Origin: Brachionus manjavacas
Lineage: Eukaryota > Rotifera > Eurotatoria > Ploima > Brachionidae
Direction: 5' to 3'
Length of the DNA: 64,000 nt
Assembly (NCBI GenBank): GCA_019054805.1
Contig: JAHQIY010000015.1
Span: forward strand, 1-64,000
Below the pieces are notes generated by a model, which worked only from the letters and a program-made list of their open reading frames with translations, made no database searches and was not told where the DNA came from. Below are positions 16,523 through 50,856 of the stretch, one piece after another (position 1 is the stretch's first letter; every line of letters begins with the position of its first letter). A program made the translations under genes and the position numbers.

Positions 16523-16574
16523 TTTAATTCAAATTTAATTATGATATTCTAAAAAATATAAAAAAATATATTTA

Positions 16575-16752
16575 TACTTATCTAAATGTCCTCATAAATT
16601 AAAAAGCATTTGTAAAATAAAAATTCAATACCAGACGCCTTACGCCACTTGTTGTTTATAACGGTTATTTCTGACCTTATTTACAGATCAATTTTTTTCA
16701 TCAGAACATTTATGCGTCTTTTAATTAGACTAAAAATCAGTTAGCTCAATCC
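16575..16752. promoter_or_regulatory. Shared upstream module between divergent genes (copy B)
   Basis: Same blocks as in copy A (AATGTCCTCATAAAT, ATTCAATACC, TAACGGTTATTTCTGACC, ATTAGACTAAAAATCAGT). A T-run is six bases shorter than in copy A. It is a candidate bidirectional promoter for the lysine-rich and zinc-finger genes. Confidence 0.5.
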
Positions 16753-17027
16753 CCAGAATTTTGTTTTTTTTAGATATTTTCATAATATTTTATTTTGAAT
16801 TTGAATCTTTGGTAAATTTTAGATAATTCAAACCTTCGTTTAGAGCTTTCTGGATAACTATTTTTATTTAAATTTTAACTTGAATAACTTAGAATATTTA
16901 TCGGGTTAATTAAGACAAACTAATCAATATAAAAAAAATGTTATTAAAATCAAAAAATTGAAGAAGAATTATAATGATTGTTTTAGTTATTTTAGAAAAA
17001 GTAAAGTTAATAGCAGGTTTAAGAAAA

Positions 17028-17817
17028 ATGAACCAATTAAACAAAATCAATCAAAACGAATATGGTGAACAGATCACACAAAGACTCCTTGAACTACTTG
17101 CAACCGGTCATATTCAACACTCTGATCCTAAATATCAATTTTTTAAAGAGGCAGTATTGCCAAGTCTTACTGTCCAATATGAAACGACAGACGGTCAAAA
17201 AACTTGCTTTTATCGTTGCAGATTCACTGGCTGCCAAACACTATGTTCAACTACACTACTTTTAGAACGTCATTTATGGGAACAACATTACGACGAACTA
17301 CCAAAAGATGTATTCGGAGAGAAAAAATTTTTTCTGTAGAACTTGTAGCAAATCATTTAAGAGACAAGAACATTTGAACATGCATAAAAAAGCCAAAAAA
17401 CATCTTAAAATTTTGGCATTAAGGAAAGGTATTTGAATTTTTAATTGTTTTTTTTATATTTCAATTTTTAAATTCATTTTTATTTTATTTTTCGCAAAAA
17501 TAGCTGCAGATTCAAAAGCCAATACAAACAGCTGGCGTTATAAAATTAGTCAGAGTAACCAGAATCATTCAAAACTACCAAGAGAAGAAAACAGCAAAGA
17601 ATCTAAAAATTGCAAAGCTAATCAAGAGCAACTTCCAAATCTTAACTTGAGTCTTGATGCTATCGAGAAAACAGTTGATTTGTTTAATGCATTTGCTTAT
17701 TCAACTATTTCAAGCCAAGAAATAATTGGAGATCAAGAAGAAAAAAATGATTCATTAGAACAGTTATTAGAAAACGATCTGAGTTTTTTTGAAAAGCTTA
17801 AAAGTCTTGAAAAATGA
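17028..17817 (+). CDS. C2H2 zinc-finger protein, copy B (two exons, one frame break)
   Basis: Same gene as 4363-5150. Start 17028 was chosen by alignment to island E. Intron 17429-17503 (75 nt, GTATTT..ATAG). Exon 2 is open to TGA 17815-17817 with the conserved ending DLSFFEKLKSLEK. Unlike copy A the last T-run keeps the frame. The break between finger 1 and finger 2, at the A6T6 run near 17320-17335, remains and is shared with copy A, so as written the protein would stop after GEKKFFL. Either this is an inherited lesion, or the same homopolymer miscall occurred twice. The second finger's Cys and His residues are all preserved downstream, which argues against long decay. Confidence 0.7.
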
Positions 17818-18305
17818 ATTAAATTTTAAATTTATAATTTATTCTAAATTTAAATAGTTATATTTTCAAATTAAACTTAAAAATCATCATTACTAATAAA
17901 TGAAAAAAAAAATCAAATCAAATTTTTGTTGTTAAAATTCAAATTTTATCAAGTTAAATTAAAATATTTTTTCTTTTAAATAAATTTAAAAAAACAATCG
18001 AATTATTTTTAAAATTTTGTCAATAGTCTAAAATAAATTTTACGACTCAAGTAAAAATTTAATTCTAACTTTTTGTAAATTTATTCATCGATTTTGTTAG
18101 ACTTAATATAAATCTTGATTTTGGTTAATTAATTTTTATCATTCATTAATTTAGAGCCAATTTATTTAAAAAGATTTAAAAAAATATTGTAATTTAATAT
18201 ATATATAGTATATAATTTAATTTAAACTAAACTAAAAACTTAAAATACAGAAAAAAACAGTAAAAAAAAGAAAAATGTGCAAATTTATTTGAAGAAGAAT
18301 TATCA
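17818..18305. other. AT-rich intergenic DNA, nothing recognised
   Basis: Convergent-gene spacer matching 5151-5635, with homopolymer runs and a short (TA)n tract. No supported feature. Confidence 0.5.
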
Positions 18306-18916
18306 TTAAATTCTAAAATATTCTTCTAAATCTTCGATTTTTTTGTGTTCAATTTGTTCGATTGCTATATTTTCCAATTTTTGATAATTGATTTTGTAAA
18401 CACATTTGAAATAAATAACAATCGATGGATCTATATTATGAATCAAGCGTTCTTTATCACTTATTATTGCAAACCACATGGCGATTCGAATGTCATAGGG
18501 TGCCAATTTATACGAGTACCAGAATTCATTAAAACATCAACAAGACTGAATTTGTTTTTTAAATCTTAAAAAGAAACAAAAAAGCTTTATAAAAGCTTTA
18601 CTTAAATGAAAACATTAAAAATACCAGCATAAAGAACAAAATGATAACTTGATTCAACTATTTCATCCTTAAAAATTGACATCCAATCATCAAAAGAAAA
18701 GTCTTCTCCTCTTATTCCATTCGTATTTTCTTTCAATTTGAAGCAAGTTCGACACGGCGAAGAATGAGTAACTTTGGAGACTATTAAAGAATATGTACTA
18801 CAGTAAGGTAGAAAAATATTAAATATCTCTCCAGTATCATAATTATGATCCAAAAAGCAAATTAATAGCACATTTTGATTGTATTGAAAATTATCTAAAT
18901 TGTCAATCGAATACAT
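18306..18916 (-). CDS. 185-aa-family unknown protein, copy B (two exons, one frame break)
   Basis: Exon 1 is 18916-18625, the intron is 18565-18624 (60 nt, GTATTT..TTTAAG) and exon 2 is 18564-18306. Sequence and layout are as in copy A, including the one-base shortfall in the T-run about 45 nt into exon 2. The sole difference noticed is one A/T fewer in the intron. Conserved features relative to the intact island E gene are YNQNV.LIC.LD, TPCRTC-type Cys pair, SFDDWMSIF, YDIRIAMWFAIISD and the acidic C-terminus ending EEYFRI. The family is not recognised. Confidence 0.65.
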
Positions 18917-19109
18917 TGATCTATAATGGAACTAAAATAAGTTATAAAACTAAAATTAAAATCATTATTTAATTCATTTAAATATTTTGAACATTTATTT
19001 TATTTCTAATGGAAACAATTTCTTTTATGCAAAAGATTGCATTGATTGTTAATGAATAATACAATCTTTATTTATCAACTAATCCTAAATCTTTAGTCTA
19101 ATAAGAAAA

Positions 19110-19385
19110 CGTACTAACATAAGGAATATTTCGCTAGCCAAATTTTTTTTAAAAATCTTTATCATTAAACCTCTAAAAAAATGAAATTTTTGAACTAATA
19201 TAAAGGGTTATTTTTTAAACTAAAAAAATTTCACAGCCAACAATAATAAAATCATCTGAAATCAAATGTCACCAGAACAAATAAAAAACTTTTAGTAATC
19301 CTAGCATATAAACTGATTCCTTAGAAAATTTCCAATTTAATGAGCATATCCAAACACATCAAAATGATTTTTTTAATAAAATTTA
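19110..19385 (+). repeat. Single decayed satellite monomer in island B
   Basis: Counterpart of 6440-6725, with the same surviving landmarks (CACAGCCAACAAT, AGCATATAAACTGATTCCTTA, AATTTAATGAGC). Confidence 0.65.
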
Positions 19386-19672
19386 ATTTTTGAAATATTT
19401 TTGCAATTTTTTATTTCAAAATTAGCATTTTTTCATCCAATGATAATTTAATAATTTTAGACTTTTTAAAATTAACTAAGCTTCTCTTAACTCAATGATT
19501 TTCAATTAATATTTATCCCTTTACGGAATTTAACACCATAGTACCAAAAATCTTACAAAAATAATTGAAGATTGTGATATTATCTAATTAGTATTTTCAA
19601 ATTCAAAATTTTACAGTTCATTTTTATCATATAAATTGAATGTTTTTTTCTATTTTTTTCAAGATTTTAGAA

Positions 19673-20044
19673 ATGAATCAAATGTATGAAAGCTTAATGT
19701 TTACTGATCCTAAAGAGCATTTAAAGTCTATTACAAATATAGCACCAAAAGATGAAGATAAAAATTTGGAAAATATTTTAGAGCTCTGTCGAAAGCATCC
19801 AAAAAGCGCCTTAAATGAAAAACATAGCCGTTTCAAAGAATGTCAGTTTTTTAGAATCGGCAACAGCAATTGCCAAATTCTAAAAAGAATTCCGAATAAT
19901 GAATCCGATATAGAAAATACGCCAGAACCTAGAATTTCAATCGACACGAAAAGACGCAACCAAATTAACTCAACTGAAACTAAAAGAAGAAAACAGCTAA
20001 AAATTTGGGAAAAAAATATTAAAAAGAAATTAAAAAATAAATAA
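19673..20044 (+). CDS. Unknown 123-aa basic protein, copy B
   Basis: Identical in frame to 7003-7374. The start at 19673 (MNQMYESLMF) is preferred to the in-frame ATG at 19640 because the stretch between resembles an intron end (T-rich tract, CAAG). The basic C-terminus (TKRRNQ, TETKRRKQ, KKKLKNK) suggests nucleic-acid association. Here the downstream DNA is not satellite but the decayed 300-aa-family gene on the opposite strand. No domain is recognised. Confidence 0.55.
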   Translation: MNQMYESLMFTDPKEHLKSITNIAPKDEDKNLENILELCRKHPKSALNEKHSRFKECQFFRIGNSNCQILKRIPNNESDIENTPEPRISIDTKRRNQINSTETKRRKQLKIWEKNIKKKLKNK

Positions 20045-20130
20045 TTTTCACATAAATTTGACTTTGTTTTTTCTAAAGCATTCTTTTCTTTTTTTATTTT
20101 AAATCCTTCATTTCTATTTTTTCCCATCAA

Positions 20131-20641
20131 TACAATAGCTTTTTATCAATAAATTTTTAAAAAATCTATTTTATTTATTTATTATTATTAAAAAAATATA
20201 ACCTAAAACCTAGAGTTAATTTATCACGAGAAATCATCGTTAACGATTTTAGACTAAGACACTTATACAATGACTTTAAAAAAAACCTTTTTTCGACAAA
20301 GAAGACTAGCTTTCCGAACTAAACTTTTTATCATTTTATAATAAACCGACCGACTGATGATCTAATTACCATAAAATTAAGCCTTTTTAATTTTAAAAAT
20401 ATTTTAATGCAGTTTATTTGTATAAATAAAATGAGTGAGATTTAAAATATGTTTTTTTTTAGGATTTTTTTATTAAATTTTTGATAACTAAATTTAAATA
20501 AATTTTGTTTATTTATTTTTTATTTATTTTTTATTTTATTTTTTATTTTATTTATTTTTAATGTTCGTTAACTTTTTTTACAATGTTTATATCGTTTCTA
20601 AAAATTGATCTTGTTAATTCTTTCTCCATTCTGATCCATTA
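20131..20641. other. AT-rich DNA with low-complexity TTTA-rich tract
   Basis: No gene supported. Positions about 20505-20565 are a near-simple tract of T-runs separated by single A (TTTATTTATTTTTTATT type). This part exists only in island B because island A switches to satellite at 7460. Confidence 0.55.
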
Positions 20642-21355
20642 TCATTCCATAAAAAGATGATCTCCCGATTGTTTATGATTGATTTTTTCATCAAGTGTTT
20701 TTTCATATTGATCTGTTAACATTACTTCCTCGGGCCAAATTATTTTATTACCATAAGTTTCTCGAATTAACTTGACAAAATGTTTTAAATCTCGTAAAAG
20801 AAATCTACAAGTAATTTCTTTATATATCATTTGGTTTTGATTTTTTAACGAATTAATTTTTGAAATTAATTTATATATATAAATAAAACTAAAAATATAA
20901 TCATCAACTTTGGATTGTACCAAATTTTCATTCATAAAATAATTAAGAAACTCTTTCTACATATTTTCAAACAAAAAATTGTCAAAATCGAATTTTTTTA
21001 CCCTAAGAAGTTAATGGTTATAGAGTTCAGAAGTATAAATAATTGATTTTGACTACAACTTCTAAAATAGTCTTTTGATCACTTGAAACATAAATTTGTA
21101 TGTCCAAATGTTCATCATAATCAAATCGGTTATTAAAGCGTTTCTGCACAACATCCGATTCACTCGTAAAGATATCATAAAGTGTTATAGACGGAATTCT
21201 ACCTAATTATCTCTCAATGATAAGTATACTAGCTTTTAAAAAATTATCTCCACTCCTAATAGATTTACAAACACTAAATGATTTTGTGTAGTTCTGACCA
21301 ATTTCATTAAAAACATTAGCCTTGTCAGCATCAATTGCGAATATTGAATTTTAAC
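20642..21355 (-). pseudogene. Decayed copy of the 300-aa unknown gene
   Basis: A 97-codon open piece (20642-20935) matches the middle of the island E gene at 45992-46894. Shared motifs are INSLKN, CRFLLRDLKH, RETYG and WP.E. The DNA beyond, about 20990-21225, still aligns with the upstream part of that gene in order (ATAAATAATTGATTTTGA, TGTATGTCCAAA, TCATCATAATCAAATCG), but it carries stops and deletions, including loss of the segment linking the two parts. The decay includes non-homopolymer changes, so this is a genuine pseudogene. It lies at the right-hand edge of island B, next to the satellite. Confidence 0.75.
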
Positions 21356-24300
21356 CGACGCACAAGTGACATTTGTTTGAAATTTTTTCCAAAAATGACA
21401 AAAACTGAACATTTCAAAAAACCAAGCATACCAGTAGATTCCTTATTAAATTTGCAATTTAATAAGCTACATTTGATAAAATGAAAATAACTTGATCATA
21501 TTAAATTAAATTTTTTTTTAACTAAAAAAGACCATGATTTTCTTTTAACATAACAAAGGAATTGTTTAATATTAAACTAATTACATCACCAAAAAAACAA
21601 AAGCCTAAACCTAACCCGAACCCTGCTCGCTCCGCTCGGAATTAATGTTATGACTAATTATTTATGATTAGCTCGTTTATACAAATTCCCAACCTTAACC
21701 CAAACCTAAAACGAACGTACGACCTCATATAAGTAATATTTCCCTAGCCCAAACCCGTATGTTTATTTTTTCCTACAATTAATTTTAAATTTTGGCAAGC
21801 AAAAAACCAAGCATACCAATAGATTCTTTAAAAAATTGCAATTTAATGAGCTACATTTGATAAGATGAAAATTATTTTTTTCGACTCTCATTTACCATTT
21901 TTAAATTTTAAATTTTTTTCAATATTTTTCAGCTGACCATATCTCTCTGAATTTTGTTCCCCTCGAAATATAAAGCCTTATTCTGGACTCAGCTAATTTT
22001 TTTGAATTAGAAAATGCTCAAAAGATTTAGATCACTTATTGATATGAATAAATTGTCTAAAAAAAATCACCAAGAGCCTTCAATAAGTCAATTGTTTGAA
22101 ATTTTTTCCCATAATGACAAAAACTGAACATTTCAAAAAACCAAGCATACCAATAGATTCCTTATTAAATTTGAAATTTAATGAGCTACATTTGATAAGA
22201 TGAAAATTATTTTTTTCGACTCTCATTTAACATTTTTAAATTTTAAATTTTTTTCAATATTTTTCAGCTGACCATATCTCTCTGAATTTTCTTCCCCTCG
22301 AAAAATAAAGCCTATTTCTAGACTCAGCTAATTTTTTTGAATTAGAAAATGCTCAAAAGATTTTGATCACTTATTGATATGAATAAATTGTCGAAAAAAA
22401 ATCACCAAGAGCCTTCAATAAGTCAATTGTTTGAAATTTTTTCCCATAATGACAAAAACTGAACATTTCAAAAACCAAGCATACCAATAGATTCCTTATA
22501 AAATTTGCAATTTAATAAGCTACATTTGATAAGATGAAAATTATTTTTTTCGACTCTCATTTAACATTTTTAAATTTTAAATTTTTTTCAATATTTTTCA
22601 GCTGACCATATCTCTCTGAATTTTCTTCCCCTCGAAATATAAAGCCTATTTCTAGACTCAGCTAATTTTTTTGAATTAGAAAATGCTCAAAAGATTTTGA
22701 TCACTTATTGATATGAATAAATTGTCAAAAAAATCACCAAGAGCCTTCAATGAGTCAATTGTTTGAAATTTTTTCCCTTAATGACAAAAACTGAACATTT
22801 CAAAAAGCCAAGCATACCAATAGATTCCTTATTAAATTTGCAATTAAATAAGCTACATTTGATAAAATGAAAATAACTTGATCATATTAAATTAAATTTT
22901 TTTTTACTAAAAAAGACCATGATTTTCTTTTAACATAACAAAGGAATTGTTTAATATTAAACTAATTACATCACCAAAAAAACAAAAGCCTAAACCTAAC
23001 CCGAACCCTGCTCGCTCCGCTCGCAATTAATGTTATGGCTAATTATTTATGATTAGCTCGTTTATACAAATTCCCAACCTAAACCCAAACCTAAAACGAG
23101 CGTACGACCTCATATAAGTAATATTTCCCTAGCCCAAACCCGTATGTTTATTTTTTCCTACAATTAATTTTAAATTTTGGCAAGCAAAAAACCAAGCATA
23201 CCAATAGATTCTTTAAAAAATTGCAATTTAATGAGCTACATTTGATAAGATGAAAATTATTTTTTTCGACTCTCATTTACCATTTTTAAATTTTAAATTT
23301 TTTTCAATATTTTTCAGCTGACCATATCTCTCTGAATTTTGTTCCCCTCGAAATATAAAGCCTTATTCTGGACTCAGCTAATTTTTTTGAATTAGAAAAT
23401 GCTCAAAAGATTTAGATCACTTATTGATATGAATAAATTGTCTAAAAAAAATCACCAAGAGCCTTCAATAAGTCAATTGTTTGAAATTTTTTCCCATAAT
23501 GACAAAAACTGAACATTTCAAAAAACCAAGCATACCAATAGATTCCTTATTAAATTTGAAATTTAATGAGCTACATTTGATAAGATGAAAATTATTTTTT
23601 CGACTCTCATTTACCATTTTTAAATTTTAAATTTTTTTCAATATTTTTCAGCTGACCATATCTCTCTGAATTTTGTTCCCCTCGAAATATAAAGCCTTAT
23701 TCTGGACTCAGCTAATTTTTTTGAATTAGAAAATGCTCAAAAGATTTAGATCACTTATTGATATGAATAAATTGTCGAAAAAAAATCACCAAGAGCCTTC
23801 AATAAGTCAATTGTTTGAAATTTTTTCCCATAATGACAAAAACTGAACATTTCAAAAAACCAAGCATACCAATAGATTCCTTATTAAATTTGAAATTTAA
23901 TGAGCTACATTTGATAAGATGAAAATTATTTTTTCGACTCTCATTTAACATTTTTAAATTTTAAATTTTTTTCAATATTTTTCAGCTGACCATATCTCTC
24001 TGAATTTTCTTCCCCTCGAAATATAAAGCCTATTTCTAGACTCAGCTAATTTTTTTGAATTAGAAAATGCTCAAAAGATTTTGATCACTTATTGATATGA
24101 ATAAATTGTCAAAAAAAATCACCAAGAGCCTTCAATAAGTCAATTGTTTGAAATTTTTTCCCATAATGACAAAAACTGAACATTTCAAAAAACCAAGCAT
24201 ACCAATAGATTCCTTATAAAATTTGCAATTTAATAAGCTACATTTGATAAGATGAAAATTATTTTTTTCGACTCTCATTTACCATTTTTAAATTTTAAAT

Positions 24301-34320: not shown

Positions 34321-35522
34321 AAGCATACCAATAGATTCCTTATTAAATTTGCAATTTAATGAGCTATATTTGATAAGATGAAAATTATTTTTTTCGACTC
34401 TCATTTACCATTTTAAAATTTTAAATTTTTTTCAATATTTTTCAGCTGACCATATCTCTCTGAATTTTTATCCCCTCGAAATATAAAGCCTATTTCTAGA
34501 CTCAGCTAATTTTTTTGAATTAGAAAATGCTCAAAAGATTTAGATCACTTATTGATATGAATAAATTGTCGAAAAAAAATCACCAAGAGCCTTCAATAAG
34601 TCAATTGTTTGAAATTTTTTCCCATAATGACAAAAACTGAACATTTCAAAAAACCAAGCATACCAATAGATTCCTTATTAAATTTGCAATTTAATGAGCT
34701 ATATTTGATAAGATGAAAATTATTTTTTTCGACTCTCATTTACCATTTTAAAATTTTAAATTTTTTTCAATATTTTTCAGCTGACAATATCTCCCTGAAT
34801 TTTCTTCTCCTCGAAATATAAAGCCTATTTCTAGACTCAGCTAATTTTTTTGAATTAGAAAATGCGCAAAAGATTTTGATCACTTATTGATATGAATAAA
34901 TTGTCGAAAAAAAATCACCAAGAGCCTTCAATAAGTCAATTGTTTAAAAATTTTTTCCCATAATGACAAAAACTGAACATTTCAAAAAACCAAGCATACC
35001 AATAGATTCCTTATTAAATTTGCAATTTAATGAGCTATATTTGATAAGATGAAAATTATTTTTTCGACTCTCATTTAACATTTTTAAATTTTAAATTTTT
35101 TTCAATATTTTTCAGCTGACCATATCTCTCTGAATTTTCTTACCCTCGAAAAATAAAGCCTATTTCTAGACTCAGCTAATTTTTTGAATTAGAAAATGCT
35201 CAAAAGATTTTGATCACTTATTGATATGAATAAATTGTCTAAAAAAAATCACCAAGAGCCTTCAATGAGTCAATTGTTTGAAATTGTTTCCCTTAATGAC
35301 AAAAACTGAACATTTCAAAAAACCAAGCATACCAATAGATTCCTTATTAAATTTGCAATTAAATAAACTACATTTGATAAAATGAAAATAACTTGATCAT
35401 ATTAAATTAAATTTTTTTAACTAAAAAAGACCATGATTTTCTTTTAACATAACAAAGGAATTGTTAAATTTTAAAATAATTACATCACCAAAAAAACAAA
35501 AGCCTAAACCTAACCCGAACCC

Positions 35523-35857
35523 TAAACCCTCGAAATAAAATTGTTAAAATAAGATTAGAAAACAAAAAATTCAAGAGAATTAACTTTTTATTCCAAATAT
35601 ATTATTTGTGATTGTGAAAATTAATCCAAACATTTTATTTTGAAAATAACATATCTCATTTAGAATTTTTGCTATCACAAAAAAGAGACTGAATAATATA
35701 CTGAAAAAAACTTTTATATGAAAAAATCTATTTTTATTCAAAAAACAACAACACAAATCAAAAAGTTTTTAATTATCACTACAAATTTGGAAAAAAAAAC
35801 AAAATACATAAACAATATCTGAGCAAACACCAAAAAAAAGAACAAAAAAACTTTGAT
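35523..35857. other. Island D left edge, 3' flank of the lysine-rich relative
   Basis: The spacer is cut right after CCTAACCCGAACC and is followed by CTAAACCCTCGAAAT, a further telomere-like string. The flank (AAAAAGTTTTTAAT, CACTACAAATTTGG, GAGCAAACACCAAAAAA) is recognisably related to 47440-47520 in island E, so the 3' flank is conserved along with the gene. Confidence 0.65.
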
Positions 35858-36353
35858 TCATGGCCAGCTGAATTTTATTGTTAACTGTTTGAAGCCTTCC
35901 ACCTTGTTCAATTTTTGTAATTTTTCATCCAAAATTTGTCGTTTCTTTTTGTTGAATTCTTATCATTCTTTCTTGTATCAGCATCTGGATTGACGTTTTC
36001 ATCACTCTCTTTTATACAATCTAATTTAGTTTTGTTGCTCATGACAACCTTTTCTTCAATAGAATCCTTATTTTTTTTATTTGATTTACTATCATTTTTT
36101 ATGTTCTTTTTCTTTTTGATTCCTTTTTCCCATCTCTTTTCCTATAATCGGGGGTTTTTCTTTTCTTTTCATTTGTTTTGTAATCACCAAGAATAACTAT
36201 TTCATTTTTATTTTCGACACTTTCTTCAGGTGTCGAACAATAGTCTTGTATTTTAACAGCTTGAGATATACTTATTCCATCATTAGTTAATTCGGTCATA
36301 TTTCGAATCTCGTTTTTAAATTCATTCTTGTCAATCTTAATATCGTTTTCCAT
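35858..36353 (-). pseudogene. Lysine-rich protein relative in island D, frame-broken
   Basis: The start ATG at 36353 opens MENDIKIDKNEFKNEI and stays open to 36099. The frame changes around 36115-36130, and a second open stretch rich in Lys, Asn and Asp follows. A further frame change near 35945 leads into the diagnostic tail RQILDEKLQKLNKVEG, KQLTIKF, ending at 35858-35860. The tail matches the genes at 15995 and 47635. The N-terminus is diverged and I do not find the IKQEP motif, although HSP-like alternatives are not indicated. With at least two breaks it is either a pseudogene or affected by homopolymer errors. Confidence 0.65.
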
Positions 36354-37710
36354 GCTTTTCTTTCAGTCTTTATAAATTTCGTTTTAATTAACAAATATCT
36401 CTTATAAGTTTAAATAATTAAGCAATTTTTTTAAATAGACTTATGCTTCTTAAAATATCAACCAATGATATAAGTCTGGTATCTTAATTAGGATAAATTA
36501 TTCCTTATTGGTTTATTTGAAAAACCTTGACTTAAATTTTATTTTAATGTTTTAAATCATAATTTGCAAAAATTAAATCATCAATTTAGTTTAAATAAAA
36601 GTGCTTTTTAATTTAAAAAAGACTCAAATAAGGTAGCGTTTTAAATAAATGTTTGTTAAATATTTTGTAAAAAATGTCTTTTCAAAATATTTTGATCTTT
36701 AATTACTAAGTTAATAAAAAAATAGATCAAGTTTTCACAAAAGAAAACCTTTTAAAAAAAGAGATTAAGCTCGATATTAATCCTGTCTATTTAATTTTTT
36801 GTAAAAACTTAAGATTGAATCAATAATATAAAAATACTCAATTGATTAGATTTTGTTTAAATATAAATTGCTATTAAACATATAAAATTTATTTTAGTTT
36901 TAGATATAACAAGTATGTCTAATAAATTTAATATTTTTTTTTGTCGAAAGAACTCATAAATAAGGACAAAAATATTCGAAATAAATATCATTTGTATATT
37001 TAAATTTAAAAAAAAATGATTTAGAAAAAAATATAAAATTAATATATAGAGTAAAATAAAATAAAAAAAACATTATTTAAAAATTAATTAAAAATAATTA
37101 TTCAAATATAAATTAAGTAAAATAAAACAAAAATCAAAATTAGTAATATTCAGTTAAAAATTTTCTAAAAATAAATATTTAAATATAAATAAAGGTAAAA
37201 TAAATTATTGAATTAGCAAAAAAAAAAACAAAAATATTTTTATTAATTAAAAGAATCAAATTTAAAAAATTTATCTTTTATTTACTTTTCCGTTTAAAAA
37301 AGCTAAATTGATTCTAATTTTTGGCTCAGTTTTTTTACAAATAAGCATTCATAGTCTTTATTAATTATAAGAGATAAATTAGTATCCTAGTTCTGTACAT
37401 TTTAGAAATTATACTTGTTTCTTGGACTATTTGCAACTAGATTAGCTAAATCCGAACACATTAAAATTTTTTCATAATCGAAATTTTACAAAAATATCAC
37501 AATTAACTTTAATGTTTTGTTAATTAGAAATTTTATTATATTTTTTTACTTGATTAATTTGTTTGATTTTTAGATCTGATTTATATTTACAAATTTCAGA
37601 GAATTTCTCCTTGTAAAATTGAAAAAAATATCGTTTTATAAATCATTTTATTTGAATGGATAAATACAAATTTTACAAAGATAAAAGAAGACATTCATTA
37701 GAATCTAAAT
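36354..37710. other. AT-rich DNA; one very decayed monomer, no gene
   Basis: About 1.36 kb with long A and T runs and stops in all frames. Near 37320-37480 the order AAGCATTC, TTATTAATTATAAGAGA, GCTAAATCCGAACACATTAAAATT loosely follows the satellite monomer end, so a very old monomer is possible. Nothing else is recognised. Confidence 0.45.
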
Positions 37711-38034
37711 TTAACAGTTAAGATTGAGCATTCTGAATTTTGATGTTAAATCTATTACATCTCTTTTTTTTTTTAAAATTTTTTTCGCTACCAAAACTTT
37801 TCTATACACATAAACCTGGTTTTTAGTGTCTTTAATGTTTTGATCCATCAATTTCCTTTTTCTGTTATTTAATTTATGTTTATTTTCATTCTGCATTGAG
37901 CCATTAACCTTAAATTGATCTTTCAATTTTCTTTTTCTGTTATTTGTAATTTTTTCAGTATCAATTTGCATTGCCTCATTTTCATTGATTTTATTGACAA
38001 ATTGAAAGATCGATGACCTATGATCCAACTCCAT
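37711..38034 (-). CDS. Unknown 107-aa basic protein with an internal repeat
   Basis: The frame is open from a true ATG at 38034 (MELDHRSSIFQFVNKINENEAMQ) to the stop at 37711. The segment NNRKRKLKDQF recurs as NNRKRKLMDQN about 25 residues later, and each contains a classic short basic nuclear-localisation-like cluster. The C-terminal part (KILKKKRDVIDLTSKFRML) contains VIDLT, which resembles a SUMO-interacting motif ([VI]-[VI/D]-[DL]-[LT]); this is a motif guess only. It lies on the same strand as the decayed lysine-rich gene and the Rep-like gene. It is short and lacks a second copy in the window, so coding status is moderate. Confidence 0.45.
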   Translation of the reverse strand: MELDHRSSIFQFVNKINENEAMQIDTEKITNNRKRKLKDQFKVNGSMQNENKHKLNNRKRKLMDQNIKDTKNQVYVYRKVLVAKKILKKKRDVIDLTSKFRMLNLNC

Positions 38035-39516
38035 TAAAGAACTTTGCTTAAATTTCTTTGTACTTTTAATATTTTTAAAAAAAATAAATTTTTACTTCAA
38101 ATATTAAATTGATTATTATTTTTTTAACTTAAAAAATTCGTTTTAATCTCGAAAATTTAAACGAATTTGTTGCAAAATAATTGTGATTTATTATTCCTTT
38201 CAAAATTTTCTTGCCAAAATTTGTCTTTTTTTGGTTGGACATTTCACAATTATTCAATTAATCAATTAATCTCAAATAAAAGTGCGAATAATTTTTCTTA
38301 TCAGTGCAAAAATAAATCCTTGTCAATAATTATTTTCTTCCGTACTCAAAATTTTATCAGAAGGGGATCTTAAAAATCAGCTCTAACTGAAATTTCAGTT
38401 GATTATGTATCATTAGATAATTTTTATCTATAAAAGAATTTTAGTAATGATTTCAAGTTTTATTAGGTTCTTACTACATTTTTATTGATATTTTAGAAAA
38501 TAAATAATGTGAAAAGGATCTGACCATAATCCGCTGCGAACCATTTAATATTAGGAACTTGAATTTCTTTTGAGTTTCTAACATGACAGATAAGCTGAGT
38601 CGTCAGAACCATTTGTCTTTATTTTGGTGAAAAAAATTCAAAAATTTATTTGGTATCAAGATCATAATCAAAAATAGAGAATAGAGAATAAATATAACTA
38701 GATAGAATTTTTTTATCATCTGATGAATACATACCAATCGACTTTGGTTAAAAACAATGCCTTTTTTTAAATAAAGCTAATAATTTCTAAATTTTCTTCA
38801 TAAAAAAATCAGAATAAAATTTTTTTTTTAGTTAATCCAAGAAAAAATACAAGAAAAAATAATTTTTATATAAATTAAGTTTATTTTTAAATAAAATTGC
38901 CAAGTTAAAATCTTAATCCAATAACTCAAAACGATAGTTTTATAACACAAATCTTTTATGCTCTTCACTCAAAAAAGGTAAAATTGATATGGCTCTTAGA
39001 TCAGATTTTTGAAAACAATCACTCAAAGAAATAAACTAAAAACTTAAAAAAGACAAGCATATTGAAAGGATTTTTAAGACAATTCCCAACTTGCAGAGCT
39101 TCAACCGAACACATAAAATAAATTTAATTTAATTTTTACTTTTAAAAAATTTATTTTAAATAATTTTTATTAAATTAGATATTTTAAAGATTTTTCTTTT
39201 TTTATTGATAAATCTAAGTTTTCATTTAAAATTTTTTCTAAAATTCTATGAAAACATAGTAAAATATTTTATGGAATTGCATATAATTTTTTAATTGTAA
39301 TGAACTCTAAAAAACACTCTTTAATGTTGAACTTGCATTATCTTATTATAAATAAAAAAATTAATAATTAACTTAATAAATTAATAAAAAATAATTAACT
39401 TTTGTTTTCATAGATTTATTAACAGTAAAAAAGTAAAAATAACAATGTGAATTTTGTAATTGAATAAAAAAATTTTAAAATATATAACAAAGTAATCATT
39501 AGCTTTCTCACATTTT
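38035..39516. other. AT-rich DNA between two minus-strand genes, no gene supported
   Basis: A 68-codon plus-strand open frame at 38167-38373 has no homologue here and no motif. About 38960-39130 keeps monomer-like landmarks (ATTGATATGGCTC, ACAAGCATATTGAAAGGATT, ACTTGCAGAGCTTCAACC, GAACACATAAAAT), so an old, diverged monomer is likely. The rest is featureless by eye. Confidence 0.45.
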
Positions 39517-41066
39517 CTAATCTTGCTTTTCAAATTCAGTTTTAACAATTTTTAGCCTGTTTATTATTTCTTTTTTTTCGTTCGGTGGCGAATAATTTGA
39601 GATCATTATAATTGGACATTTGACACTTATAACTCTAGCTGATCGACCTTTGACCCGAATAGCTGTTTGGCGCCCTTCAACCAAATTTTTCCATTCTTCA
39701 TTATCAAACTGACTGAATTCAAATTCATCCATAACCACTACCCGATGATTAGCCGAATCAAAAATCAGCCCATGCAAATTGACAATTTCTTGCCGGTCTA
39801 AATATCTGAAGTTCATTTACTACTTTAGGCAAAAGCCAATCAAAAATCATTGTTGTCTTTCCAGTATTTGATTCACCCCATAAGTACAGAGCTGGAAATT
39901 TTGGGCACCAATTTGATACACATTCATTGTACCAATCTAAAACTTTTAATTTGGTTTTGTTTCCATTTGTAACTAAATCAAGCAGTTTTAAACCATGGCA
40001 AGGTGGAAAATTTATCGGATTTTTTTTGTAATAATCTGCATGTGCCTTGAAAAAATTTTTTAAATAATGAAAATTTACAAGTTAAAATCTTTTAGAAGGA
40101 ATTAAAAATATTTACTAGGACTATCATTTTGTATAAATTTGGCCGAGAGCATATAAATGGGTCATAATAATTAAACTCAGGATTTGCCTTAATCCAATCA
40201 GTTAATTTCTTATAGAAAGCACATTCGTCTGAACTTATATTTTTCAACAAAGGACTAGAGTCTTCTTTTGTACAATAAATGATTGCATTTTTTAGCTGAT
40301 TTACATGCTTCAATATTTGATTTGATTCCATTTGTACACCAATTAATTATACGATTACATTTCGCAAAATCCACAACATGTTCATGATTAAACTCTAAAA
40401 AATTAAACAAATATTAAAATAATTACAAAAAAGTTAGAAATAACCAGCAAATATATGAAGATGTGTTTTACAATGTATCCAGTTGTCTTCTTCTATAATT
40501 GAATTACTCTGTGATTTATTCAAATCCTTGCTTGTTCCTTGAGACTGTACTTGTTTAAATGTGCCACTCAATTTTCGTTTAGCACACATTCGTCCATCTT
40601 CGAACTTAGAAATATCTGTTTCTTCAGTTTCATTTAAATATTTAACTTGACTTAAAGTGTTAATGCCTATTATATTTTCTTCCGAAAGCCTTTTATCTTG
40701 GGAGCTGTTTTCATCGTCCAAAATGTTGAAAAATTTTTTTTCTTTATTTATAAAATTTTTTTTAATGTTTGTCTCTTTTAAAGACTTTCGGACAGAAGAA
40801 TCTTTACAACAGCTATCTATGTAGCTTAATGTATGATTTTCTTTTGATACAAGAAGTCTATTACAAATAGGCTCAAGACCTCTAAAAATAAACTTTTTTG
40901 GCAAGTCACATCTAGGTATTGTAATTAAATACATATTTGGAAGAGCTTTGCCAACTGGTTTACGTCTATTCATCCTGCAACTGTTCATTTTTTTAATTAA
41001 AACTTTTTTGTAAATCTTATCTCTTAATTCTAAAATTGTAATTCTTTTATATCCTGAAGATTTCAT
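39517..41066 (-). CDS. Rep-like protein: HUH endonuclease plus SF3 helicase (three exons, two frame breaks)
   Basis: Read on the minus strand. Exon 1 (41066-40445) has YLITIPRCDL (residues 46-55, like HUH Rep motif I) and, at residues 201-206, THLHIF (HUH motif II). Exon 2 (40394-40116) has YCTKED, the motif III with catalytic Tyr and Lys. Exon 3 (40045-39517) has LYLWGESNTGKTT (Walker A, 39851-39877), VVMDEF (Walker B, 39721-39738) and IMISN (motif C, 39595-39609). Introns 40395-40444 and 40046-40115 have GT..AG ends. In CRESS-DNA Reps these domains nick an origin and unwind DNA for rolling-circle replication. Two breaks sit in homopolymers (plus-strand T-run near 40331 and A-run at 39760-39764). 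The 145-residue gap between motifs I and II is far longer than usual. It could be an endogenised virus gene, a Rep transposon or a domesticated gene. Confidence 0.8.
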
Positions 41067-41369
41067 TTAGAAAAAAATGTCCTTTAAAAGTACTAATTTT
41101 TTATAATAAAGAAATTTATTCATTTAATACTTCGAAAGGAAAATTAGAAATTCTCTTGTTTTACTATAATATCCAATCTGATTTAAAAAAATATAAAAAT
41201 ATTATAAAAAAATTTGTAAAAATATTCTCAAATAAAGTTTTCATCTTCTGAATCATTTAACCGTTTTCAACAAGGCTCGATCAAGAGATTATTTTTTTGT
41301 TTTAAGAATAATATATTGAACTAACTATACAAACAGATTCATTTGAGATTTTGCAGAGCTACATCTCGA
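41067..41369. other. Upstream flank of the Rep-like gene and right edge of island D
   Basis: AT-rich DNA. From about 41330 an old monomer end is visible (ACAAACAGATTCATTTGAGA, TTGCAGAGCTACATC), which then switches at about 41370 to a young monomer at ACCAAGCATACC. So an old repeat is fused to the young array at a homologous point. Confidence 0.55.
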
Positions 41370-44300
41370 CCAAGCATACCAATAGATTTCTTATTAAATT
41401 TGCAATTAAATAAGCTACATTTGATAAGATGAAAATAACTTGATCATATTAAATTAAATTTTTTTAACTAAAAAAGACCATGATTTTCTTTTAACATAAC
41501 AAAGGAATTGTTTAATATTAAAATAATTACATCACCAAAAAACAAAAGCCTAAACCTAAACCCGAACCCTGCTCGCTCCGCTCGGAATTAATGTAATGGC
41601 TAATAATTTATTATTAGCTCGTTTATACAAATTCCCAACCTAAACCCAAACCTAAAACGAGCGTACGACCTCATATAAGTAATATTTCCCTAGCCCAAAC
41701 CCGTATGTTTATTTTTTCCTACAATTAATTTTAAATTTTGGCAAGCAAAATACAAAAGGATACCAACAGATTTCTTATAAAATTTGCAATTTAATGAGCT
41801 TTATTTGATAAGATGAAAATTATTTTTTTCGACTCTCATTTACCATTTTAAAATTTTAAATTTTTTTCAATATTTTTCAGCTGACCATATCTCTCTGAAT
41901 TTTCTTCCCCTCGAAATATAAAGCCTATTTCTAGACTCAGCTAATTTTTTTGAATTAGAAAATGCTCAAAAGATTTTGATCACTTATTGATATGAATAAA
42001 TTGTCTAAAAAAAATCACCAAGAGCCTTCAATGAGTCAATTGTTTGAAATTTTTTCCCAAAATGACTAAAACTGAACATTTCAAAAAACCAAGCATACCA
42101 ATAGATTCCTTATTAAATTTGCAATTTAATGAGCTACATTTGATAAGATGAAAATTATTTTTTCGACTCTCATTTACCATTTTAAAATTTTAAATTTTTT
42201 TCAATATTTTTCAGCTGACCATATCTCTCTGAATTTTCTTCCCCTCGAAATATAAAGCCTATTTCTAGACTCAGCTAATTTTTTGAATTAGAAAATGCTC
42301 AAAAGATTTTGATCACTTATTGATATGAATAAATTGTCGAAAAAAAATCACCAAGAGCCTTCAATAAGTCAATTGTTTGAAATTTTTTCCCAAAATGACT
42401 AAAACTGAACATTTCAAAAAACCAAGCATACCAATAGATTCCTTATTAAATTTGCAATTTAATAAACTACATTTGACAAGATGAAAATTATTTTTTTCGA
42501 CTCTCAATTACCATTTTAAAATTTTAAATTTTTTTAACTAAAAAAGACTATGATTTTCTTTTAACATAACAAAGGAATTGTTTATTATTAAACTAATTAC
42601 ATCACCAAAAAAAACAAAAGCCTAAACCTAACCCGAACCCTGCTCGCTCCGCTCGGAATTAATGTAATGGCTAATTATTTATGATTAGCTCGTTTATACA
42701 AATTCCGAACCTAAACCCAAACCTAAAACGAGCGTACGACCTCATATAAGTAATATTTCCCTAGCCCAAACCCGTATGTTTATTTTTTCCTACAATTAAT
42801 TTTAAATTTTGGCAAGCAAAATACAAAAGGATACCAATAGATTCCTTATTAAATTTGCAATTTAATTAGCTACATTTGACAAGATGAAAATTATTTTTTT
42901 CGACTCTCATTTACCATTTTAAAATTTTAAATTTTTTTCAATATTTTTCAGCTGACCATATCTCTCTGAATTTTCTTCGCCACGAAAAATAAAGCCTATT
43001 TCAATACTCAGCTAATTATTTTGAATTAGAAAATGCCAAAAAGATTCCGATCACTTATTGATATGAATAAATTGTCGAAAAAAAATCACCAAGAGCCTTC
43101 AATAAGTCAATTGTTTGAAATTTTTTTCCAAAATGACAAAAACTTAACATTTCAAAAACCAAGCATACCAATAGATTCCTTATAAAATTTGCAATTTAAT
43201 GAGCTACATTTGATAAGATGAAAATTATTTTTTTCGACTCTCATTTACCATTTTTAAATTTTAAATTTTTTTCAATATTTTTCAGCTGACCATATCTCTC
43301 TGAATTTTGTTCCCCTCGAAATATAAAGACTATTTCTAGACTCAGCTAATTTTTTTGAATTAGAAAATGCTCAAAAGAATTAGATCACTTATTGATATGA
43401 ATAAATTGTCTAAAAAAATCACCAAGAGCCTTCAATGAGTCAATTGATTGAAATTTTTTCCCAAAATGACAAAAACTGAACATTTCAAAAAACCAAGCAT
43501 ACCAATAGATTCATTATAAAATTTGCAATTTAATAAGCTTCATTTGATAAGATGAAAATTATTTTTTTCGACTCTCATTTACCATTTTTAAATTTTAAAT
43601 TTTTTTCAATATTTTTCAGCTGACCATATCTCTCTGAATTTTCTTCCCCTCGAAAAATAAAGCCTATTTCTAGACTCAGCTAATTTTTTTGAATTAGAAA
43701 ATGCTCAAAAGATTTTGATCACTTATTGATATGAATAAATTGTCTAAAAAAAATCACCAAGAGCCTTCAATAAGTCAATTGTTTGAAATTTTTTCCCATA
43801 ATGACAAAAACTGAACATTTCAAAAAACCAAGCATACCAATAGATTCCTTATAAAATTTGCAATTTAATGAGCTACATTTGATAAGATGAAAATTATTTT
43901 TTCGACTCTCATTTACCATTTTTAAATTTTAAATTTTTTTCAATATTTTTCAGCTGACCATATCTCTCTGAATTTTCTTCCCCTCGAAATATAAAGCCTA
44001 TTTCTAGACTCAGCTAATTTTTTTGAATTAGAAAATGCTCAAAAGATTTTGATCACTTATTGATATGAATAAATTGTCTAAAAAAAATCACCAAGAGCCT
44101 TCAATGAGTCAATTGTTTGAAATTGTTTCCCTTAATGACAAAAACTGAACATTTCAAAAAACCAAGCATACCAATAGATTCCTTATTAAATTTGCAATTA
44201 AATAAACTACATTTGATAAAATGAAAATAACTTGATCATATTAAATTAAATTTTTTTTAACTAAAAAAGACCATGATTTTCTTTTAACATAACAAAGGAA

Positions 44301-45991: not shown

Positions 45992-46894
45992 TTAATCGCC
46001 TTGTTTTTTCTGTTTGTCTTGACTTGACGATCTTTCGTAAATAACGATTTTATTCATTGAAGCATCAATGCTCAATTTCTGATTTGAAAATTCACCATTA
46101 TTTGGTTTGTTTATTTTTGGATATACATAATAATTTTTATTTTCATCATCTTTCTTTTCATATCGGTACATTTGCATTTCTTCCACAGGCCAACATATTT
46201 TTTTTCCATAAGTTTCACGAAAAAACTTGACTAAATGTTTTAAATCTCGTAAAAGAAATCTACAAATGATTTCTTGTATATCTAACATCTCATTATTATT
46301 TTTTAATGAATTAATTTTTAAAATTATTTTATAAATATCTATAAAACAGAAAACAAAATCATCCAAATTCGATGGTAAGTAATTTTCATTCTCAATAACA
46401 TTATCATACTCATGCTGCATTTTTTTTAGCAATGCACTGTTTAAGTCATACTTTTTTCCATGTAAATTTTGATGATTATAGTTTTTAGCGGTATAAATAA
46501 TTGATTTTGAACAGACAACTTCTAAAATGGACTCTTGTTCTCTTGAAACATATATCTGTATGTCCAAAGTTTCATCATAATCAAATCGATTTTCGAATCG
46601 TAATTGATTTTCTTCTGAATCATTTGAAAAGAAATCATAGAGTCTTATTGATGGAACTCTTTCTGCATGTCTTTCATTGTTTAGTTGATTTGTTTTGATA
46701 GAAACCTCATTACCTTCAATAGCATCAGGAATCCCGAACGATTCAATGCTGTTAGCGTTTTTAACATTATTAGGATCTATTGTGACGTTTGATTTTGAAT
46801 CGAAGTTTAAGTCATGCTTTTGTTCAGCTTTAATCGAATCGTTAAATATATTCTCTAATTTATACTCAATTTCTAGATTTTTCAAATCTGACAT
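45992..46894 (-). CDS. Unknown 300-aa protein (intact)
   Basis: The first ATG in this frame is at 46894 (MSDLKNLEIEYKLENIF), and the frame is open to the stop at 45992. The N-terminal 90 residues are polar and acidic, probably disordered. Residues around 85-140 (RLYDFFSND, FDYDETLDIQIYVSREQ, SKSIIYTAKNY) and around 175-245 (INSLKN, ICRFLLRDLKHLVKFFRETYGKK, WPVEEM) look folded and are the parts that survive in the decayed copy at 20642-21355. The C-terminus is polar. No catalytic motif, zinc finger or membrane span is seen. Its upstream region shares blocks with the upstream region of the lysine-rich gene (AATGTCCTCATAAAT, ATTCAATAC, TAACGGTAAT), which implies shared regulation. The family is not recognised. 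Confidence 0.7.
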   Translation of the reverse strand: MSDLKNLEIEYKLENIFNDSIKAEQKHDLNFDSKSNVTIDPNNVKNANSIESFGIPDAIEGNEVSIKTNQLNNERHAERVPSIRLYDFFSNDSEENQLRFENRFDYDETLDIQIYVSREQESILEVVCSKSIIYTAKNYNHQNLHGKKYDLNSALLKKMQHEYDNVIENENYLPSNLDDFVFCFIDIYKIILKINSLKNNNEMLDIQEIICRFLLRDLKHLVKFFRETYGKKICWPVEEMQMYRYEKKDDENKNYYVYPKINKPNNGEFSNQKLSIDASMNKIVIYERSSSQDKQKKQGD

Positions 46895-46964
46895 TTTTTT
46901 AATCAATGAAATTTTCTGGAATTGTTTCTATAATTTCGAATATTATTTTAATTTTATACTTTTC

Positions 46965-47634: not shown

Positions 47635-48108
47635 CTAGTTGAAATTTATCGTTAGCTGTTTTCGTCCTTCTTTCTTGTTAATGTCTTGTAATTTATCATC
47701 CAAAATCAGACGATCTGTTTTTATTTCTGATTTTTTGTTTCTTTTTCTTTTCTCTATATTACCATTGAAACCATCCTTTGTTTTAGTATTATCTAATTCC
47801 TTGTTTTCACTGCAGTCATCGTTCAATTGATTTTTCACAATTTGTTCCTTGTCATTTTCTTTATCTTCACTTGGACCTTCATTCCAATTATCCATTTTTT
47901 TTTTCTTTTTTTTCGTTTTTAATTCTTTATTAGCTTTTCTTTTTGCTGTCTTGACTTTATTTTTGCCATCTTCAATTAGGACGACATCATTAGTACCTTG
48001 CTCTTCATCTGAAATAGGCTCTTGCTTAATAGTTTCTAGTGTTTTCTGAACAATTTTGTTTATTTCATCTGAGCTTAGTCCAGAATTGCAATTTTCTGAT
48101 CTATTCAT
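47635..48108 (-). CDS. Lysine-rich acidic/basic protein, 157 aa (intact, island E)
   Basis: ATG at 48108 (MNRSENCNSGLSSDEINK), open to 47635. The layout is as in the island B gene: an acidic N-terminus with TIKQEPISDEEQG, K-rich clusters (KRKANKELKTKKKKKK, KRKRNKKSEIK) and the tail RLILDDKLQDINKKEGR, KQLTINF. IKQEP[VI]S is kept between otherwise diverged N-termini, which suggests selection on a SUMO-type site. It is divergent from the zinc-finger gene, with 500 bp between start codons, the same arrangement as in islands A and B. The product is probably nuclear. Its function is unknown. Confidence 0.75.
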   Translation of the reverse strand: MNRSENCNSGLSSDEINKIVQKTLETIKQEPISDEEQGTNDVVLIEDGKNKVKTAKRKANKELKTKKKKKKMDNWNEGPSEDKENDKEQIVKNQLNDDCSENKELDNTKTKDGFNGNIEKRKRNKKSEIKTDRLILDDKLQDINKKEGRKQLTINFN

Positions 48109-48159
48109 TTTTTTTAATAATCATTATCAAAAATTTATCTAAATTTAATTTTATACTTA

Positions 48160-48335: not shown

Positions 48336-48607
48336 ACAAAAAATTCTGTTTTTTTTTCTGTAACAGTTCGTTTGGAATTTGAATTCAAGTTAAGTGCAAA
48401 CTGATAAGATTGATAGCTCATAACATTGTTTACAGCATTGTTCAGAGCACTCCTTGTTTACGGTTCATATTAATATTAGAATTTAAATTAATCCAATAAT
48501 TTAAAGCGAATAATTGAAGTAGACTAATCATTAAGATATAAAAGAAAAAAAGATTCGTATTTTTAGAAAAAAAAGCTAACAACAGATCTTATTTAAAAAC
48601 ATTGAAC

Positions 48608-49403
48608 ATGAATAGTTATAATAAATTCAACCAAAACGAATATTGTGAACAAGTAAAACAGAAACTACTTGAATTGCTAGCAACCGGTACCATTCAACGC
48701 TCAGACCCTAAATATCAATTTTTTAGGGACAAAATATTGCCTAGTCTTACATCCCCATATAAAACACCAGATGGTGAAAAAACTAGTTACTATCGATGTC
48801 CATTCATCGGCTGCAAATCATTTTGTTCCAATCCCCTTGTCTTAGAACGCCATATGCGCGAACAACATTTCGATGACCTACCAAAAGATGTTTTTGGAGA
48901 GAAAAAGATATTCTTTTGTAGAATTTGTAACAAATCATTTAAGAGACAGGAACATTTAAACATGCATAATAAAGCCAAAAAGCATCTTAAAAATTATGCA
49001 TTAAAACAAGGTAATTGAATCTTTAGAATATTTTGTTAAAATTGAATTTTGAATTTTAGTTTATATAATTTTTCACAAAAAAGCTGCCGATTCAAATTCT
49101 TATTCAAACCGCTGGCGCTATAAAATTAGACAAAACAACCAGGATCACTTAAATCTATCAAGAAAAGAAAAGAAAGTAGACTTAAATTCGAAAAATTGCA
49201 TAGACAATCAAAATCAACATAAAGAACTTGATTTGAGCCTTGATGCTATCGAGAAAACAGTGGATTTATTTAATGATTGTACCTCTTCACCTCTTTCAAG
49301 CCCAAACACAATTGCAGACTATGAAGAAGAAAAAGATTCACTAGAACAGTTATTAGAAAACGATCTGAGCTTTGTTGAAAAAATCAAAGGTCTCGAAAAA
49401 TGA
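48608..49403 (+). CDS. C2H2 zinc-finger protein, 240 aa (intact, two exons)
   Basis: Exon 1 is 48608-49010, the intron 49011-49083 (73 nt, GTAATT..AAAAAG) and exon 2 49084-49403. The frame is continuous across the junction. Residues 1-60 form a helical N-terminus conserved in islands A and B (NQNEYCEQVKQKLLELLATG, SDPKYQFF.....LPSL). Finger 1 is C-X4-C-X12-H-X4-H (CPFIGC...H-MREQ-H). Finger 2 is C-X2-C-X12-H-X5-H (CRICNKSFKRQEHLNMH). Exon 2 is acidic and ends with DLSLDAIEKTVDLFN and EQLLENDLSF. C2H2 fingers normally bind DNA or RNA, so a regulator of the island or a satellite-binding protein are both possible. This copy has no frame breaks, which makes it the reference for copies A and B. 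Confidence 0.85.
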
Positions 49404-49883: not shown

Positions 49884-50504
49884 TTAAACTCTAAAGTATT
49901 CTTGTATATCTTCAATTTTTTTATTTTCAATTTGTTCGATTACTATTTTTTCCAATTTAAAATAATTAATTTTGTACACATGGTGAAAATAGAATACAAT
50001 GGAAGGATCTATATTATTAATCAATCGCTCTTCATCACTAATTATTGCAAACCACATAGCGATTCGTATGTCATACGGTGTCATTTTATTCGTGTACCAA
50101 AATTCATTACAAATATCATCGAAACTTGAATATTTCCCATCATTTTTTTTAAAATCTTATTAAAAATAAAGTTTTAATTAGCAGTTCTTATAATTTTAAA
50201 TAAATAAAAAAAAAATACCTGCATAAACAATAAAATGATAACTTGCTTCGATTTTTTCATCTTCAAAGATAGACATCCAATCATCAAAAGAAAGGTCTTG
50301 ATCTCTTATTGGATTAGTGTTTTCTTTGAACTTATAGCATGTTCGACAAGGTGTAGTATGATTTACTTTTGACACAATTAAGGAATGACAGAATGGGTGA
50401 AATATTCTAAAAATATCTGCTGTATCATAATTTTCGTCCAAAATACAAATTAAGGAGACATTTTGATTATATTCAAAAAGATCTAAATCGTCAAACGAAT
50501 ACAT
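49884..50504 (-). CDS. Unknown 185-aa protein (intact, two exons)
   Basis: Exon 1 is 50504-50219 (MYSFDDLDLFEYNQNVSL...), the intron 50218-50156 (63 nt, GTATTT..ATAAG) and exon 2 50155-49884. The lengths add to a continuous 186-codon frame. The N-terminal half has CILDENYDTADIFRIF, a Cys cluster (TPCRTC) and SFDDWMSIFEDE. The C-terminal half has PYDIRIAMWFAIISDEERL, HHVYKINYFKLEKIVIEQIE and an acidic end. The residues conserved with copies A and B are spread evenly, suggesting a single folded domain. No known family, catalytic triad or membrane segment is recognised. It ends convergently with the zinc-finger gene. Confidence 0.75.
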
Positions 50505-50856
50505 TGATCTAAAAAAATAAAAACAAGATTTTTAAAAAAGGAAAAAAATAAGAGAATTTAAGAAAACTAAACATTTTCTTTACAAACAAAACAATTCTAT
50601 TTATGCAAACACATGGAAAAATTATGAACGATTAAAGGAGAGCATTTTCTCGACCATTCCTAGTTAAAAAGCTAAATTTAGGAATGATCTAAAAAAAGGT
50701 ATGCGCTAAAAATAAAATTTTCAACAGACTTAAACTATCAATACGAAGACGGAATTTTAACCAAAAATAATATCGAAGGAGTTTTTAAATAATTTTGTAA
50801 AAAATATTAATTGAAAATTACTTATTTTGAAGAAAAATTGATTTTCTATTTATTTT
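50505..50856. other. Upstream flank and right edge of island E
   Basis: AT-rich DNA with no gene. It joins the array at about 50857 within a spacer (AATTTTTTTAACTAAAAAAG, ACCATGATTTTCTCC). The basic 123-aa gene that follows this position in islands A and B is absent. Confidence 0.5.

Follow-up and report, generated by a model that had tools for sequence, protein, structure and literature searches.

Why does a gene for a rolling-circle initiator (Rep), interrupted by introns, lie within satellite DNA of a Brachionus genome? The window, which is the whole stretch of 64,000 nucleotides analysed here, opens contig C15 as its first 64 kb, and the genome searched comprises 114 Mb in 61 contigs. Overall, the window alternates between a 335-bp satellite of about 26% GC and gene islands. 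For the island that holds the Rep gene, the initial annotation had offered three options: an endogenised virus gene, a Rep-coded mobile element or a domesticated gene. We therefore describe the gene, the array in which it lies and the genes around it, and then weigh what may have spread them.

Identity and copies of the Rep gene

The motifs of a Rep had been proposed to follow one another in the correct order across three exons, and all of them are present in that order on the minus strand. The parts of the gene are as follows, with motifs and introns placed by sequence reading:

40445-41066, minus strand: exon 1, with HUH motif I and motif II (HLH); open frame, family-profile match of 3.9e-7 over the motif I region
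40893-40934, minus strand: motif I, MYLITIPRCDLPKK
40455-40463, minus strand: motif II, HLH
40395-40444, minus strand: intron 1, 50 bp, GT..AG, phase 1
40116-40394, minus strand: exon 2, with motif III; frame interrupted in the window copy, profile match of 5e-10 for exon 2 of another copy
40260-40277, minus strand: motif III, YCTKED
40046-40115, minus strand: intron 2, 70 bp, GT..AG, phase 0
39517-40045, minus strand: exon 3, the SF3 helicase; frame interrupted in the window copy, profile match of 2.9e-31 for exon 3 of another copy
39851-39877, minus strand: Walker A, GESNTGKTT
39721-39741, minus strand: Walker B, VVVMDEF
39595-39609, minus strand: motif C, IMISN

Both introns begin with GT and end with AG, just where they had been placed. 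Each exon alone matched the profile of the rotifer Rep family, with exon 1 taken from the window and exons 2 and 3 from other natural copies; the E-values are hhalign values for single comparisons. Because the exons were searched apart and each matched the family profile, the agreement of the motifs is not a matter of chance. Among five pieces of the window gene compared with Pfam, the Walker B piece came closest to a helicase-type family (PF19263, DUF5906, at 1.8e-4, below the cut-off), and this was the only family of that type near significance. The Walker A piece matched AAA_25 at 0.012, and no Rep or helicase family was found for the remaining three. Exon 3 of another copy clears the PF19263 cut-off (5.3e-7; 30.7 against 27.6 bits), and Parvo_NS1 matched five of 16 relatives (best 3.1e-6). 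Searches of the PDB by sequence returned no match for the Walker A piece and 13 weak matches for the family profile, with a septin as the best (0.0075) and viral Rep chains at 0.52 and 0.91. PHROGs returned mainly DNA primase and helicase families, and an Rfam scan gave nothing useful. The modelled fold of the rotifer Rep family is that of a CRESS-type HUH nuclease joined to an SF3 helicase. Its top match by Foldseek against the PDB was AAV2 Rep68, while the structural Z-scores placed CRESS nucleases and E1/AAV helicases in a tie. The window gene is a genuine Rep of CRESS type in three exons, with an HUH endonuclease (motifs I, II and III and the fold) and an SF3 helicase (Walker A, Walker B and motif C). 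A Rep with introns in such a locus had been called unusual. The introns are real but not peculiar to this gene, as a companion gene of the array, gene E, has a phase-1 intron at the matching place.

A genome search with the window Rep gave nine matches: six at 100%, one at 82% (C59) and two at 52% (C14). The six belong to near-identical modules on C15, C8 (two), C31 (two) and C59, all of them inside repeat arrays. Compared pairwise, these modules show 0-13 substitutions over 5.67-5.95 kb, together with 15-34 gap events. In the 15 module pairs, 374 of 406 gap events fall in homopolymers of at least four, in DNA that is AT-rich and for which the background rate was not computed. The two homopolymer frame breaks reported for the window copy are present; they are absent from all five of the other non-mirrored copies, which carry breaks elsewhere. 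Exon 1 is fully open in two of the six copies, and each exon is open in at least one. Since the breaks are missing from the five other copies, substitutions number only 0-13 and gaps fall mostly in homopolymers, the frame breaks are likely to be homopolymer sequencing errors, a better reading of the alignments than decay. One of the C8 modules differs by one substitution from the C31 copies and by ten from its C8 neighbour, which shows exchange between contigs. We left out the further copy on C59 (82% in the genome search, elsewhere 95%), which differs from each of the six by 133-144 substitutions and 112-119 gap events and lies in the mirrored half of that contig. On C59 the right half repeats the left in mirror image, at a noisy identity of 93.6% and 94.4% in two stretches that were aligned; this is probably due to a fold-back read and less likely a true inverted end.

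A modular array beyond telomere-type tracts

The search for a junction pattern found 29 places in the window. All but one of them are preceded by one conserved end block (28 of 29, similarity at least 0.91), the exception being the right end of module W1. Each junction is followed by telomere-like words and then by one of three heads: a common one (26), that of W1 and W2 (two) or that of the Rep module (one). The 28 inter-junction intervals include 22 whose lengths agree with the series 385 + k x 335 bp (k = 0, 2, 3, 4 or 5) and four that hold genes; the other two, of 2749 and 3362 bp, probably contain a junction that the search missed, as weak telomere-like words occur there. The main elements are:

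1-64000, plus strand: array in which 335-bp satellite modules and four gene modules follow one another head to tail, from the junction search
35503-41548, unstranded: Rep module, starting with telomere-like sequence and closing with its right end block; with junctions at 35483 and 41530, and present in six copies genome-wide
41440-41548, plus strand: right end block of the Rep module, common to the satellite modules and three telomere junctions, from sequence comparison
41549-41690, unstranded: head of the next satellite module, with telomere-like words, a hairpin and AAATATTAC (minus strand; putative Rep site), from sequence reading

Modules W1 (697-7476) and W2 (13363-21604) are tandem copies about 12.7 kb apart, with 99.6% identity over 6.9 kb. 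The telomere-like word CC[CT][AG]A[AC]CC occurs 165 times on the plus strand of the window and never on the minus strand, against means of 4.5 and 0 in 30 first-order simulations. Elsewhere the word is also polar, with plus-to-minus counts of 125:1 on C8 and of 0:86 and 0:32 on C31. In the window and in both C8 and both C31 copies, the Rep module ends on the right in one layout with minor variation, and on C8 and C31 the left-hand end block stands before the module at corresponding positions. Among those of its 252 matches that were listed, the satellite occurs on C8, C15, C31 and C59, and C6 also begins in satellite. Satellite modules and Rep module have their end block and their telomere-like boundaries in common, and so appear to belong to one array system. 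Of the options in the initial annotation, the Rep-coded mobile element fits best, and the island seems to be more than a stray virus gene in unrelated satellite.

The putative Rep site AAATATTAC lies near a hairpin in the module heads (hairpin z of -2.65 and -1.96 on the two strands). Its 32 matches exceed the 12.8 expected, but they are mostly one site multiplied with the repeat. In CRESS origins, NANTATTAC stands in the loop of a stem-loop, whereas here AAATATTAC adjoins the hairpin and is not in its loop.

A telomere-type pattern gave 61 matches on 13 contigs, and the reversed control gave none genome-wide. We read across the junctions on C15, C31 and C6. In all three, the end block is directly followed by a mixed CCCTAA/CCCTAAA tract whose polarity is that of the contig's own end, and then by inner DNA that is unrelated between the contigs. 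The array thus stands on the outer side of the telomere-type tract on each of them. C30 starts with such a mixed tract, and C14 has telomere-type tracts with no array end block in the 60 kb examined. As C8, C15 and C31 stop inside the repeat, the outer chromosome end is not assembled. In the sections available, a 2021 paper states that the telomeric repeat of Brachionus is not known (PMC7943196); the mixed tract is a candidate for it. The genome also has a telomerase gene (Telomerase_RBD at 1.2e-20 in a 1126-aa frame, C6:3325836-3326234), so the array is not needed to replace telomerase.

Companion genes and relatives of Rep

The gene modules of the window carry several further reading frames:

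37711-38091, minus strand: H, basic 126-aa ORF of the Rep module, from its reading frame
50199-50531, minus strand: exon 1 of E in module W4, resembling Rep exon 1 (BLASTP 2e-6, single comparison), without the second histidine of motif II
49887-50156, minus strand: frame of E exon 2 in module W4, with no significant match to Rep exon 2
5639-6256, minus strand: E in module W1, with exon 1 at 5936-6256 and exon 2 split between two frames at 5639-5895, from sequence comparison
18309-18925, minus strand: E in module W2, from sequence comparison
48542-49018, plus strand: C, a C2H2 zinc-finger protein in module W4 (PF00096 at 5.8e-6)
49053-49403, plus strand: D in module W4, from its reading frame and copies
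45992-46927, minus strand: F, 311 aa, from its reading frame, with related copies on several contigs
47635-48120, minus strand: B, a basic protein in module W4, from its reading frame and copies
13557-14573, plus strand: A, 338 aa, in module W2, a reading frame with no Pfam match

Within modules the genes run in both directions, which fits DNA-based copying better than RNA-based copying. For gene pairs between diverged modules we calculated dN/dS by the Nei-Gojobori method. The ratio was 0.22 for E (W4 against W1; Fisher p 1.2e-7), 0.16 for C (p 1.6e-10), 0.49 for D (W4 against W2; p 0.011), 0.43 for F (against a C31 copy; p 9.1e-6) and 0.49 for B (W4 against W2; p 0.0025). These five companion genes are under purifying selection, though a further D pair (W4/C8) at 0.72 speaks against strong constraint on D. 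No weight was given to three other pairs: E W4/C8 (0.89) and the two C14 Reps (0.4), each with few changes, and C W4/C8, for which dS is saturated. The fold of F modelled alone is not usable (pLDDT 31.6). Basic proteins of three module kinds (15998-16528, 47638-48120 and 35864-35941) have a C-terminal motif like ILDEKLQxINKxEGxKQLTIKF.

Exon 1 of gene E ends in YHFIVYAG where Rep has HLHIFAG, and the phase-1 intron follows there as it does in Rep. No helicase was seen after E, and its match to the Rep family profile is weak (E-value 0.022, probability 2.2). Gene E is apparently Rep-derived, on the two grounds of the exon 1 match and the place and phase of the intron.

Relatives of the window Rep were found in other samples as four window-type helicases, 67-86% identical to it. 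Three are intact from Walker A through motif C, and the fourth, a shorter piece, covers the rest; the Rep motifs are intact in these relatives. The only relatives with an organism name are two SF3-helicase proteins of Brachionus calyciflorus, which are 67% and 57% identical to another Rep gene product of the genome and point to a Brachionus-type rotifer as host. Further Reps of the genome lie outside such arrays, on C4, C5, C6 and C14, where they are scattered and partly broken. On C14, a 7.3-kb duplication (99.6%) holds two copies of a diverged Rep with a single exon, and no array end block lies nearby. The same contig has, at about 7.1-11.3 kb and at 16-20 kb, long ORFs that appear Helitron-like by eye (an HUH-type HIH motif, a PIF1-like helicase and an endonuclease-like part). 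Close to the end of C5 (C5:6954501-6963500), pieces of Rep occur together with a C2H2 protein and F inside 7.5 kb, with neither telomere-like words nor satellite. This suggests that the three form a functional gene set, older than the satellite or separable from it.

A viral origin was also sought through close relatives, and this candidate was rejected: none was confirmed in IMG/VR scans (queries A1, A3 and P0020), and none was found in bacterial and archaeal genomes (query A3) or in phage records (query P0003).

Spread of the array and known systems

The observations to be explained are the module architecture, its polarity, its outboard position on three contigs, the near-identity of Rep modules on four and the purifying selection on companion genes. 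Our leading interpretation, which we hold tentatively, is that a CRESS-type initiator on a 6-kb module belongs to a telomere-associated mobile element system, lying outboard of telomere-type tracts and spread by Rep through rolling-circle copying. Recombination across the short telomere-like boundaries would release circular modules. Rep would then nick the site in the module head and copy the circle, and the resulting head-to-tail concatemers would join chromosome ends by way of telomere-like homology. The satellite modules may be non-autonomous and copied in trans, and E, which lacks the second HUH histidine, may regulate Rep or compete with it. Rep-driven spread is the leading mechanism but unproven. 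Several observations count against it: the window copy is broken as assembled, the possible origin is one site multiplied with the repeat, other Reps lie outside arrays, and a telomerase gene is present. A bolder version sees a DNA-based telomeric element. Here Rep, gene and satellite modules with one common end would move from one chromosome end to another as circles copied by Rep and form arrays past the telomerase-type tract, E acting as a control factor; we regard this version as doubtful.

Recombination alone could also spread and homogenise the modules. Rep would then be a passenger from a CRESS-like element captured in a subtelomeric array, amplified and homogenised by the host, much as yeast Y-prime elements are, and without a part in the spread. 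Such recombination accounts for tandem, homogenised modules with internal telomere-like tracts, and the Reps away from the array and the closed frame of the assembled window copy agree with it. The intact motifs of the window-type relatives, and the grouping of Rep, C2H2 protein and F on C5 without satellite, speak against it. We consider the passenger a serious possibility, if on the whole a rather improbable one.

A retroelement of the Terminon type is unlikely. In that case a Penelope-like reverse transcriptase would build the array by attaching element 3' ends to chromosome ends, and Rep would be an accessory gene. In the accessible text on Terminons, these elements carry Rep, short telomeric repeats at their bounds, head-to-tail arrays and reverse-complement telomeric repeat ends (PMC6431247), and here, too, the end block is on the inner side and adjoins C-rich repeats. 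By contrast, no reverse transcriptase family, Penelope-like (Athena) or other, was found in 25 reading frames or pieces scanned from arrays that are not seen complete, and none of the listed candidates, with 150 of 5613 scored genome-wide, falls in the arrays. Rfam detected no hammerhead in the window at the gathering score, nor in 35300-42200 and 41300-41780 at a relaxed E-value, and the module genes point both ways.

Domestication by the host, for a function at chromosome ends, might be expected from the near-identical copies, the introns and the purifying selection on companion genes, but the gene is multi-copy, its six window-type copies are confined to repeat arrays and related Reps elsewhere are scattered and partly broken, which makes this explanation very unlikely. 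Least credible is a wrong joining of satellite contigs to telomere tracts in the assembly: C8, C15 and C31 do end within repeat and C59 mirrors itself as a fold-back read would, yet the join at the end block is identical on three contigs with unrelated inner flanks, and the tract polarity is unlike a chance overlap of two telomeres.

Among known systems, CRESS-DNA viruses such as geminiviruses, circoviruses and their relatives differ from this locus, which has three exons, chromosomal multi-copy modules and no relatives in the IMG/VR scans. All copies seen are chromosomal, where such a virus would have a circular single-stranded genome. No capsid family scored above the Pfam cut-off among the ORFs scanned (one weak match to an L-A coat, at 0.029, is meaningless), and many CRESS capsids escape Pfam. 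Helitrons (RepHel) likewise join an HUH rolling-circle initiator to a helicase in a eukaryotic genome. The helicase fused to the HUH Rep here is of SF3 rather than PIF1 type, and the nuclease resembles that of CRESS Reps. Yeast Y-prime elements are subtelomeric blocks that carry a helicase gene, lie beyond internal telomere tracts and are homogenised between ends. Their helicase is of another type, whereas the gene here is an HUH-SF3 Rep. Closer in host, Brachionus asplanchnoidis has copy-number-variable satellite arrays with a few interspersed genes; the main monomers given in the accessible text are of 154 and 143 bp with raised GC (PMC8447722), compared with 335 bp and about 26% GC here, and neither "helicase" nor "telomer" has a whole-word match in that text.

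The array most resembles Terminons, Athena-containing giant Penelope-like elements at bdelloid telomeres, in telomeric position, telomeric repeats at unit bounds, head-to-tail arrays, C-rich repeats after the inner end and the presence of Rep among the accessory genes, as far as the available sections describe them (PMC6431247). Here, too, telomeric repeats stand at the unit boundaries and head-to-tail arrays at chromosome ends, of which the outermost end is unassembled. The differences are genes in both orientations, satellite modules with the same end and a monogonont-type rather than bdelloid host; the captured ORFs of Terminons are said, in the part of the source available, to accumulate in an oriented manner (PMC5537684). 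Because reverse transcriptase and hammerhead were not found in the scanned parts and genes run both ways, the array is Terminon-like and not a Terminon. Among the top papers listed in a literature search mostly outside subscription journals, no title or abstract opening names a Rep in a Brachionus telomeric array.

Terminons and the Drosophila HTT elements are described, in the sources available, as telomeric mobile elements that use reverse transcription; for Terminons, the accessible text reports Rep genes and only suggests circular intermediates (PMC6431247). A Rep-coding array without detected reverse transcriptase, common to chromosome ends, would mean that an element can persist on telomeres by DNA-based means alone, and the Rep genes known from Terminons would gain a use. 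If true, the DNA-based telomeric element would do by rolling circle what the telomeric elements of bdelloids and Drosophila do by reverse transcription.
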